Origin: Methanoregula sp.
GTDB taxonomy: Archaea; Halobacteriota; Methanomicrobia; Methanomicrobiales; Methanospirillaceae
Direction: 5' to 3'
DNA length: 32,388 nt
Assembly (NCBI GenBank): GCA_026394605.1
Contig: JAPKXY010000060.1
Coordinates: 1 to 32,388 of the forward strand
Below, piece after piece: positions 25,764-32,388 of the stretch. How positions within the stretch are numbered: position 1 is the first letter of the stretch; every line of letters starts with the position of its first letter. A program made the position numbers and the translations under genes. The notes under the pieces were generated by a model, which worked only from the letters and a program-made list of their open reading frames with translations, did no database searches and was not told the DNA's origin.

Positions 25764-26657
25764 ATGCTATCAGCAGATGATTTTGTTCCCGTTACCATCG
25801 ATGATCGCGGGTTTTTCGTAGATCATTATGCACAGTACCCCCAGACGCACAGCGATAATACATTCACCAACATGCTCTGCTGGAATCATTTTGCCCACTA
25901 CCGGTACGCTGCTGTCAACGGGTCGGTGCTCATTTCCAGCACGATCGATGGAACGACCCGGTTCCGCCCACCTATCGGTCCCCGGGATCCTGACCTTTCA
26001 AAGGCACTTATCAGGTTTGCATATCGGGAGAGTGACAAGGAACCCGTCGTGCTCATCGATCCGGACACAACCTCGTGGATTCACGGACTCTGCCCGGCCC
26101 TGAATATCGTTGCCGACCGGGACCATTTTGAATACGTGTACAGGGTAAAGGATCTTGCCGCCCTTTCCGGTGGACCGTATCTCAATATACGTCGCCAGCT
26201 CAACCGGTTCAGGAAAAATTGTGCATATTGTGTGGAACCCATAACAGCTGAGAACCGCGAGGAGGTAAAGTATTTCCTTATCAAGTGGTGTGAATGGAAG
26301 GGATGCGAGAACGAACGGGTTCTTGCCCACGAAAAGGACGCCGTTTTCTATGGGATCGATCATTTCCTCGAACTGGGACTCTCTGGGCTGATCATACGGG
26401 TCGATCAGAACATTGGTGCCATCTCGTTGTATGAACCGTTTACCGCAGACACCGCACTTGTGCATTTTGAAAAAGGGCTTCCGGACTGTGAAGGGATCTA
26501 CAAGGCAATCAATGCCGAAACAGCATCAGTGCTTTTACGAAATTTCACCTACCTCAACCGTGAGAGTGACCTTGGCGTTCCCGGGCTGCGGGAAGCAAAG
26601 ACACGATACCACCCCCACCACATGGTCGAAGTGTATTCCATAAAGAAGACCGGATGA
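25764..26657 (+). CDS. DUF2156 family protein (LPG-synthase C-terminal-like, GNAT fold)
   Basis: The 297-aa protein matches the DUF2156 family, related to the C-terminal aminoacyl-transferase domain of phosphatidylglycerol lysyltransferases. Telling parts are NTFTNMLCWNHFAHYRY (about 33-49), YLNIRRQLNRFRKNC, the catalytic-type segment TALVHFEKGLPDCEGIYKAI and the end LNRESDLGVPGLREAKTRYH. Soluble stand-alone members are common in methanogens, and their acceptor is not known; no membrane half (flippase) is attached. It starts with no gap after the GNAT gene, so both are co-translated. A T7 run follows at 26685-26691. Confidence 0.85.
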   Translation: MLSADDFVPVTIDDRGFFVDHYAQYPQTHSDNTFTNMLCWNHFAHYRYAAVNGSVLISSTIDGTTRFRPPIGPRDPDLSKALIRFAYRESDKEPVVLIDPDTTSWIHGLCPALNIVADRDHFEYVYRVKDLAALSGGPYLNIRRQLNRFRKNCAYCVEPITAENREEVKYFLIKWCEWKGCENERVLAHEKDAVFYGIDHFLELGLSGLIIRVDQNIGAISLYEPFTADTALVHFEKGLPDCEGIYKAINAETASVLLRNFTYLNRESDLGVPGLREAKTRYHPHHMVEVYSIKKTG

Positions 26658-28261: not shown

Positions 28262-28945
28262 TCAGCCAAAGAAACTGCGGTTCAGATCTCCATTGTTGGA
28301 ATATCCCCGCTGCTCCCAGTATCCCCGGTACTGCTGGTTATCACTGAGTTCGATCCGTTCAATCCACTTGATCCACTTGTACCCCCATTTGTCTTCCGCC
28401 ACAAGCTGGAAGGGGAAACCCCGTTCTGCAGGAAGGGTCACATTGTTCATTTTGTATGCCATGATGATGTCACGTTCAACGAGGTCTTTGAGAGGAAGCG
28501 AGGTCGAGTACCCGTCATGGGCATACAAGATCACGGTTGTTGCGCGGGGATCGATACCCGCGTCATTCAGGATGTCACGCACGAGCATTCCCTCCCAGAG
28601 GATTGTCGCGTCCCATCCCTCGACACAATAGAGGGTCACGACCTTGGAGTAGTGCGGGTAGTGGTCAAGCACTTCATGGTACTGGTACGAAACCGTCCTG
28701 TTCACGAGCCCGTCCACAACGAAACGGTACTGATCCTCATCAATTCGCTGCGGCCCTTTGATTGAGTTTTCCCGGAAGTCGTTACTTGACGAGAGCCGTT
28801 CGCCCTGATAGGATCGGATCTCTAAAGGAGCGAGCTGTGTCATCCGGGTACCAGATACTATTTGCGGGCTGGAGGAGATATCGAGAATATAGATGACGGC
28901 GACTGCGGATATGACAAGAAAGGCAATCACCCACTTGACTGACAT
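28262..28945 (-). CDS. Membrane-anchored molybdopterin-dependent oxidoreductase (sulfite oxidase/MsrP fold)
   Basis: The 227-aa protein starts at ATG 28945 (MSVKWVIAFLVISAVAVIYIL), an uncleaved signal anchor; the frame is open further upstream, but that text is not membrane-like. The extracytoplasmic part has the Moco domain layout. FVVDGLVNRTVSYQYHEVLD is the entry strand. VVTLYCVEGWDATILWEG holds the Cys expected to ligate Mo. GYSTSLPLKDL and the end GFPFQLVAEDKWGYKWIKW are typical of archaeal SUOX-like proteins. The substrate is not predictable (sulfite, methionine sulfoxide or other). The small haem-like anchor downstream would pass electrons but is interrupted. Confidence 0.85.
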   Translation of the reverse strand: MSVKWVIAFLVISAVAVIYILDISSSPQIVSGTRMTQLAPLEIRSYQGERLSSSNDFRENSIKGPQRIDEDQYRFVVDGLVNRTVSYQYHEVLDHYPHYSKVVTLYCVEGWDATILWEGMLVRDILNDAGIDPRATTVILYAHDGYSTSLPLKDLVERDIIMAYKMNNVTLPAERGFPFQLVAEDKWGYKWIKWIERIELSDNQQYRGYWEQRGYSNNGDLNRSFFG

Positions 28946-29027
28946 GGTACAGTACTCACGGTTGAATGTGGTGCGAGGCAACGTATGAATTATTGGATGG
29001 TGACGTTTCTTACATTGCATCAATCAT

Positions 29028-29121: not shown

Positions 29122-29604
29122 ATGGCAAAGACAGCAGTAAAAGTAAAAAAGGCGAGTTCATCGGTAAAAAGGAGTATCCAACCGAAAGGTAAAGCGAAGA
29201 AGACCAGGGTAGCAAAGGCACCGGTCGTCCGTCGGTATAAGTGCCTGTACTGCAACTATATTTACTCACCGCTGCGGGGTGAACCGCATAACGGGATCCC
29301 TGAAGGGACGGAGTTTGATGACCTTCCCGACACCTACGTGTGTCCCATCTGTGGCTACGAGGGGAAGGGAAAAATCGGAACGTGGGGGTTTGAGGAGTGG
29401 AAGCCCACCAAATACATCTGTTCGATGTGCGGCTATATTTACGACGAGGCACGGGGGGAACCCCATCACGGGATCAAACCAGGCACGAAATTCGATGACC
29501 TGCCGGATGATTATCGATGTCCTGTCTGCGCACTTGATCCAAAGATCACGAAGTTTTTTGGAAAGGTTCTCAAGCAGGGTTTTGATGCTATAGATGTTGT
29601 ATAA
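29122..29604 (+). CDS. Double-rubredoxin protein with Lys-rich N-terminal extension
   Basis: The 160-aa protein has a basic, low-complexity N-terminus (about residues 1-38, [18 protein letters not shown]), then two full rubredoxin domains. Domain 1 (about 39-85) has [17 protein letters not shown] and VCPICGY. Domain 2 (about 95-140) has [17 protein letters not shown] and RCPVCAL. Each provides four Cys for one Fe, so two Fe(Cys)4 centres are expected. Rubredoxins carry single electrons, often to oxygen- and peroxide-reducing enzymes in methanogens. GGAGG at 29111-29115 sets the start. It is divergent from the molybdopterin oxidoreductase, and a redox link is possible but inferred. Confidence 0.93.
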
Positions 29605-30979: not shown

Positions 30980-32017
30980 TTAGATGAGTTTGAAGATGGG
31001 GTGGTTTTCTGTCTTGACATCGACCCCGATCGAACGCATTGCTTCGAGTGTCACGATATCCATGTATGCCTGTGCGGTGATCATTGGCTCCACGTTCTCG
31101 ATGGGGCCGTACATGATCAGGTTGGCACCGAGTGTGCTTGCAATCAGGTTGCAACCGATATCGGGAGCGGACCAGGCTGCCTGCTTGATACCTTCCAGAC
31201 CACCAAGGTAGTGTTTGGACATTTGCTCGAGGAGGAGATCTTTGCCCTTGTAGCCTTCTGCTAGTACTGAGGGGGTTTTGCTCGTCCCCTTCCAGCGTTT
31301 GAGCCAGGTCCAGGCAACTGTCATGTTGTGGTAGGCACCACCGGTCGGGTAACCGTGAATCGCCTTGCACGCAAGGATCTCGCGGTATGCACTTCCTGAA
31401 CCGAGCCCGAGCGGTGTTGCCGCAGTGTCAAGGATCGGGCGGGTGATACCGCAGTCTTCTGAAATCGGGATCATACCCTTTGCCTGACCTGCAACACCGC
31501 CCGCAACGAGCACCTTTTCCCTTCCCGCAACTGACGGGTCGGCGGGATTAAAAGCGAGCACGATGGCTGAGTCCACATCGCTGTTCTTCAGCGCCTCGAT
31601 GTTCTCCGGCAGGATCGAACCGTTGATCGAGTTGTAGATCGCACGGTGCGCAAGCCCGACCTCGGTTGCATACTTGCAGGCATGGGCGAGCGCCTTTGGT
31701 ACTGATGAGTCCATCAGGAATGCGGTCTTGTTGTCAATACTGTCGAACCATGTGAAGTAGCTCTCGAACGCCGCAGGGTATTCAGCCATGATCTGGATCA
31801 TGTGCGGAACACCGGTCGTGTCAGATAGTACCTGACAGCGGTTCCACAGGGCCTCTGCCTTCGGTTTGTCGATCTTTCCCGTCTTGTCATCGAGCACAAT
31901 CTCGTGCTTGTTGTAGAAGATCGAGGCTGCCAATACGGTCGGGTACTCGCCGGGCTGTCCACCAAGCTTGGTGCCGTTGAAGTCCCAGACGCTTTGTTCC
32001 TTTTCGAATTTGAACAT
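30980..32017 (-). CDS. mtrH: Methyl-H4MPT:coenzyme M methyltransferase subunit H
   Basis: MtrH (345 aa) transfers the methyl group from methyl-H4MPT to the corrinoid of MtrA in the sodium-pumping Mtr complex. It is a cytoplasmic TIM-barrel methyltransferase. Clear family text: KFEKEQSVWDFNGTKLGGQP, GEYPTVLAASIFYNKHEIV, FLMDSSVPKALAHACKYATE, RAIYNSINGSI, ILDTAATPLGLGSGSA, PTGGAYHNMTVAWTWLK and the end NHPIFKLI. It is about 30 residues longer than the thermophilic homologues, mainly around KRWKGTSKTPSVLAEGYKGK. GGAGGTG lies 9 bases before the ATG. It is separated from the upstream MtrG-type gene by 16 bases. Confidence 0.97.
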   Translation of the reverse strand: MFKFEKEQSVWDFNGTKLGGQPGEYPTVLAASIFYNKHEIVLDDKTGKIDKPKAEALWNRCQVLSDTTGVPHMIQIMAEYPAAFESYFTWFDSIDNKTAFLMDSSVPKALAHACKYATEVGLAHRAIYNSINGSILPENIEALKNSDVDSAIVLAFNPADPSVAGREKVLVAGGVAGQAKGMIPISEDCGITRPILDTAATPLGLGSGSAYREILACKAIHGYPTGGAYHNMTVAWTWLKRWKGTSKTPSVLAEGYKGKDLLLEQMSKHYLGGLEGIKQAAWSAPDIGCNLIASTLGANLIMYGPIENVEPMITAQAYMDIVTLEAMRSIGVDVKTENHPIFKLI

Positions 32018-32033
32018 TTCTTTTACACCTCCA

Positions 32034-32388
32034 TTACATGAATGCCATCAATTTCTGGAGCAGGAACAACAGCATCACAAATACGGTTAATCCTGCGACC
32101 AAGCCGTACAGTATGCCGATATCCCGTCCGATCTTTCTCCCTACACGCTGCGCGACCTCTGCATCGACAAACTCGAGCTTCTTCTCGATCTTGTCGAGCC
32201 GCTTCTCAATCTCGAGGAACTGGGGGTTTGCACCCGCAGCCGCAACCTCGACACCACCGGCAGCCTCTTTGACCTGGACGACCATGGGTTCAGCGGCGAA
32301 TGCGCCGGGGTCCCTGGCTTTGAGTTCATCGATTTTTGCCTTAATGGTTTTGAGGTCTTCAGCCTCCATGATGTTGACGCATTCGACC
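32034..32388 (-). CDS. mtrG: MtrG-type subunit, apparently fused to the C-terminus of MtrA (5' end outside window)
   Basis: The last 60 residues are MtrG: EKRLDKIEKKLEFVDAEVAQ, RVGRKIGRDIGILYGLVAG, then one transmembrane helix. MtrG is normally about 75-85 aa. Here the ATG at 32369 gives 111 aa, has no ribosome binding site, and the frame stays open to the window edge as VECVNIMEAEDLKTIKAKI. That text, with KARDPGAFAAEPMVVQV, resembles the C-terminal part of MtrA, the corrinoid-carrying subunit. The simplest reading is an MtrA-MtrG fusion, or an MtrA whose own anchor is MtrG-like, cut by the edge. The alternative is an MtrG with a long N-terminus. MtrG is thought to help hold MtrA/MtrH to the membrane part. 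Confidence 0.8.
   Translation of the reverse strand, partial: VECVNIMEAEDLKTIKAKIDELKARDPGAFAAEPMVVQVKEAAGGVEVAAAGANPQFLEIEKRLDKIEKKLEFVDAEVAQRVGRKIGRDIGILYGLVAGLTVFVMLLFLLQKLMAFM

Follow-up and report, generated by a model that had tools for sequence, protein, structure and literature searches.

Mtr carries out the sodium-pumping, energy-conserving step of methane formation, and this locus raises the question of whether two of its subunits, the corrinoid protein MtrA and the membrane protein MtrG, are made here as a single polypeptide. The window (the whole stretch of DNA that was analysed, 32,388 bases, which is the entire contig G000:C60 of a Methanoregula genome) ends on its right-hand side inside a minus-strand frame that contains MtrG, and the initial annotation had seen in the residues ahead of the first ATG a resemblance to the C-terminal region of MtrA. 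We put at about 0.9 the probability that this frame belongs to the 3' end of mtrA-2b, a second mtrA gene of the Methanomicrobiales that encodes a corrinoid domain and MtrG in one continuous frame.

The frame at the contig end

The frame runs from 32387 to 32034 on the minus strand (base 32388 is not part of it) and codes for 117 aa, and it is indeed open upstream of its first ATG, as far as the end of the window and of the contig. Its parts, and the operon gene that follows it, are these:

32034-32387, minus strand: 3' part of mtrA-2b (mtrA-2::mtrG fusion), truncated where the contig ends, with its stop codon at 32036-32034
32256-32387, minus strand: residues 1-44 of the frame, the C-terminal quarter of MtrA's corrinoid domain (positions 127-170 of Pfam PF04208)
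32223-32255, minus strand: linker from the MtrA domain to MtrG, without a start codon
32067-32222, minus strand: residues 56-107 of the frame, the MtrG domain, which has one membrane helix (positions 11-62 of Pfam PF04210)
30980-32017, minus strand: mtrH, which follows in the operon and codes for 345 aa (MtrH, 319.9 bits)

The upstream residues do belong to the C-terminal region of MtrA: the search of the frame against both profiles, which had been proposed with the initial annotation, matched MtrA at 46.5 bits and, in frame after it, MtrG at 85.3 bits, both above the curated Pfam cut-offs (25 bits for MtrA and 27 bits for MtrG), and this supports the fusion. The finding of both families in one frame is far beyond chance. 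The NCBIfam scan also matched mtrG and mtrA, with mtrG above its cut-off and mtrA under it because the fragment is short, and the PDB sequence matches include both MtrG (9qtq_S, 8q3v_G) and MtrA (8q3v_A, 9qtq_A). Modelled with AlphaFold, the fusion gave a poor structure (mean pLDDT 55.7), and a Foldseek search with it, in which MtrA structures rank first, added nothing beyond the sequence match.

Only two ATGs could start a shorter gene holding the whole MtrG part, at codon 7 (32369-32367) and at codon 35. Neither has a Shine-Dalgarno-like match upstream, and the remark that the first ATG lacks a ribosome binding site holds accordingly. After the stop of the fused gene at 32034, mtrH follows directly. 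Further away, the window carries a gene for a 160 aa protein with two rubredoxin domains (29122-29604, plus strand; 128.7 bits over two stretches), one for a small protein with an oxidoreductase molybdopterin-binding domain (28262-29023, minus strand; 120.2 bits) and a match to the C-terminal domain of phosphatidylglycerol lysyltransferase (25764-26657, plus strand; 194.4 bits).

The fusion in relatives

The operon of the relatives reads mtrC-mtrB-mtrA1-mtrF-mtrA2::mtrG-mtrH, with an mtrA1 of about 240 aa that has its own membrane helix and a full fusion of about 240-260 aa. These relatives include Methanoregula, Methanolinea, Methanoculleus, Methanofollis, Methanogenium, Methanocalculus, Methanomicrobium and Methanocorpusculum. 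In a scan of 108 loci (30 + 78, some genomes being in both sets), all 93 ORFs with an MtrG match also had an MtrA match. In a further 55 loci, among which some genomes appear twice, MtrA residues were found in frame before MtrG every time: 20 of these frames are full length, 30 are open to the locus edge (for L175, L177 and L182 the MtrA residues, too few to give a search match, were recognised by eye) and five are disrupted at a point further upstream (N runs, a frame break or an ambiguous base). The MtrA-MtrG fusion that had been suspected from the window alone is therefore found across the order, and a free MtrG was found in none of the order genomes inspected (the 93 ORFs and the 55 further loci).

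The order-wide search gave an MtrG match in 179 of 232 genomes, and among the matches listed (150 of the 179) the open frame is at least 236 aa in 100 and shorter in 50. In 21 of the short ones the match is on the plus strand and begins less than 430 bases from the contig start, and these were taken as edge cases, the sequence being inspected for five (L147, L150, L159, L161 and L162). The other 29 comprise the window itself, 25 whose sequences were fetched and three that were left out, two of which (G365 and G459) are covered through the loci L156 and L165, the third being G464, with a frame of 233 aa. Twenty of the 25 fetched frames end at a contig edge, three contain N runs (G415, G413 and G021), one has an ambiguous base and a broken frame (G454) and one a frame break near the contig end (G002); none of the 25 is a free MtrG. 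At the level of the phylum, MtrG was matched in 166 of 294 genomes, and outside the order the frames among the matches listed do not exceed 143 aa, which leaves no room for both an MtrA domain and MtrG.

The initial annotation held that a separate, complete mtrA with its own anchor ahead of this gene would refute a fusion. Such a gene does occur in the relatives, yet the fusion stands, because the fused gene is a second mtrA and not a replacement of the first.

Two corrinoid domains kept alike

We compared the corrinoid domains of mtrA1 (A1) and of the fusion (A2) in the relatives. As a first pass with strict motifs recovered both genes in only 36 of 108 loci, a phmmer pass was used instead, and the comparison covers 155 codons in 55 pairs (65 loci with both genes complete, minus 10 duplicates). 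Within a genome, the mean DNA identity of A1 and A2 is 96.0% (minimum 80.6%), and it is 90.5% at third codon positions; the corresponding means between genomes are 75.5-75.8% and 53.1-53.6%. In 49 of the 55 pairs no orthologue of either copy comes as close as the paralogue from the same genome, and the six exceptions (L016, L097, L101, L104, L111 and L112) have close relatives in the set. The two domains are homogenised within each genome of the relatives examined. L020 and L029, of the same genus as the window, show A1-A2 identities of 1.000 and 0.998; the pairs that have drifted are L111 and L112 (about 0.83) and L024 (about 0.80-0.81). Along the gene, the mean identity is 0.95-0.98 up to codon 150, then 0.91 and 0.70, and beyond codon 180 only 0.22-0.39; the similarity thus ends at the onset of the membrane parts.

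The second domain might then be a passive leftover that recombination keeps similar to the first and that has no catalytic role. Recombination could come easily, since the two copies amount to a long direct repeat within 1 kb, and the six pairs in which the own paralogue is not the nearest indicate a conversion that is not uniform. Against this reading stand the residues at the cobalt. In the numbering of M. marburgensis, His84 and Glu54 are placed at the lower side of the cobalt in the section of PMC4915002 that deals with them, and in the aligned relatives both the His and the Glu are kept in 55 of 55 A1 and in 55 of 55 A2, including the A2 of the drifted pairs L111, L112 and L024. We consider a second domain without a catalytic role improbable.

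The second corrinoid domain would be optional in the complex if the fused frame also yielded a free MtrG, by an internal start or by cleavage. An ATG, GTG or TTG does lie between codon 151 and the MtrG part in 42 of the 55 A2 genes, the commonest being an ATG 17-19 codons before the MtrG part, but the remaining 13 have no start codon at all in this interval, and a Shine-Dalgarno-like match of at least 5 bases accompanies the internal codon in only 2 of 55. The same kind of match is found at the A2 start in 43 of 55 genes and at the A1 start in 51 of 55. A conserved internal start for MtrG is therefore unlikely, as far as such motifs can tell, and was rejected as a route to the free subunit; a free MtrG produced in either way appears very improbable to us.

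The missing part of the gene in this genome

Since the window is the entire contig, the 5' part of the fusion gene lies beyond the assembly. The sole other MtrA match in this genome covers the first 44 positions of the model and sits at the very end of contig C53, where the translation shows the first 47 codons of an mtrA, preceded by mtrC and mtrB (named by their place and look). By comparison with the relatives, the gap between C53 and C60 would be about 1.2 kb. Separate mtrF and mtrA genes, which the initial annotation advised looking for, are both present in relatives, and this genome has the start of an mtrA; mtrF was not found in its assembly, and most of mtrA1 is likewise absent from it. 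There is no overlap between the two MtrA fragments, and the A1-A2 identities above are accordingly those of the relatives; the positions of the cobalt-ligand His and Glu fall outside the MtrA part held in the window. To judge from the relatives, this very genome would carry the full-length fusion, of which the window holds only 117 codons.

In the relatives, two near-identical copies of the MtrA domain lie about 940 bases apart. Such a repeat would trouble short-read assembly, and this probably explains the contig break at the window edge. Many other genomes of the order have a contig break or an N run at the same mtrA repeat. For the users of draft genomes, this means that the operon will often be broken there, and that a truncation or absence of mtrA, mtrF or the fusion can be only apparent. 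An assembler chimera at the repeat, in a real genome with a separate mtrG, would agree with a contig that ends inside the MtrA repeat and with the breaks in other genomes, but it is hardly credible, and for the order it was rejected, since the junction, at which the repeat yields to the linker and MtrG, is inside the contig at some 130-165 bases from the end, since the same junction is found in complete, single-contig genomes (e.g. G010, G025 and G037), and since no inspected genome of the order has a free MtrG.

A candidate Mtr with two corrinoid arms

The in-frame fusion of a second corrinoid domain to MtrG has consequences that depend on where MtrG sits. In the solved complexes, as PMC12774963 and PMC10998594 describe them, the core of the cytoplasmic stalk consists of three MtrA helices, and the central bundle that seals the membrane of three MtrG helices. 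The MtrA domain acts as a mobile arm attached through a flexible linker, and strands of MtrB receive three MtrH dimers, the docking sheet being built from the N-termini of MtrB, MtrF and MtrG. The fused MtrG probably takes the usual place of MtrG in the stalk, as part of the three-helix membrane seal, and every complex would then have to carry the second corrinoid domain. That the fusion would change the stoichiometry of Mtr, as had been proposed for this locus, is a sound inference.

What could be built in this way is an Mtr trimer with six methyl-carrying arms instead of three, three on MtrA1 and three on MtrG, each of which would be able to move back and forth between MtrH and the sodium channel MtrCDE. 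The N-terminus of MtrG, in the region of the MtrH docking sheet, would be the attachment point of the second arm, whose linker in the relatives is similar in length to that of A1. The M. mazei complex has three MtrA for six MtrH, and binding of MtrA by the membrane-distal MtrH is considered unlikely; the second arm could make use of this second MtrH active site. Because MtrG exists only as a fusion in the order genomes inspected, we tentatively propose for the Methanomicrobiales a two-armed Mtr, with two corrinoid arms per protomer and six per trimer, while regarding it as a doubtful reading for now. Six arms would equal the six MtrH of the M. mazei complex, if MtrH is arranged alike. Should both arms be active, each pump would have twice as many B12 groups, and the coupling models with one arm per protomer would need revision for these organisms.

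The MtrH of the window has an extra stretch of residues:

31181-31267, minus strand: stretch of about 28 residues in MtrH (residues 251-279), seen against the MtrH of Methanosarcina mazei and the sequences from outside the order

This stretch is missing from the M. mazei MtrH. The span examined has 31-35 residues in all 109 MtrH sequences of the order (duplicates included), and 6-9 residues in 42 of 42 from outside the order (30 + 12 sequences). The literature search found no title or abstract on extra MtrH residues. The insertion could be an adaptation to the second arm; it is not tied to a second MtrA domain as such, because L216 and L217, which bear mtrA-2a, the fusion of MtrA to MtrF, have an MtrH without it.

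Comparison with known systems

The fusion of MtrA and MtrG has been in print since 2015. In the passages that concern it, Wang et al. 2015 (PMC4632066) describe mtrA-2b as the mtrA-G fusion of the Methanomicrobiales, show gene conversion of the MtrA domain and include two Methanoregula species in their list. Their paper is the only one that our literature search found to name the fusion. With respect to those passages, the gene of the window is in the same order and in the same place directly ahead of mtrH (and, in the relatives, after mtrF), with an MtrA domain that is fused to MtrG and, in the relatives, homogenised with that of mtrA-1 through gene conversion; nothing essential sets it apart, as it is the same gene in another genome, cut by a contig end. 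The present analysis adds a wider sampling, the conservation of the ligand residues in both copies, the test of internal starts and the six-arm reading, which the search did not find in the literature; nor did it find a structure or a cobalt count of a Methanomicrobiales Mtr.

The nearest parallel is mtrA-2a (mtrA-F), which the same paper reports, in those passages, from the Methanococcales and Methanocella arvoryzae. It too is a second mtrA that joins its corrinoid domain to a stalk subunit with one helix, but the partner is MtrF and not MtrG, and the gene is placed between mtrA-1 and mtrG. The two Methanocella-like loci among our sequences, L216 and L217, have mtrA-1 and an MtrA-F fusion with the same MtrA domain. 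One of their genomes, G075, has two MtrG matches about 350 bases apart.

Finally, the canonical Mtr, known from M. marburgensis (8q3v) and M. mazei (9qtq/9qts), has homologous subunits and the same conserved ligand residues, but it carries one corrinoid domain per protomer, and its MtrG is a separate protein of 72-86 aa. The build of Mtr in a whole order of methanogens differs from that of the two solved structures.
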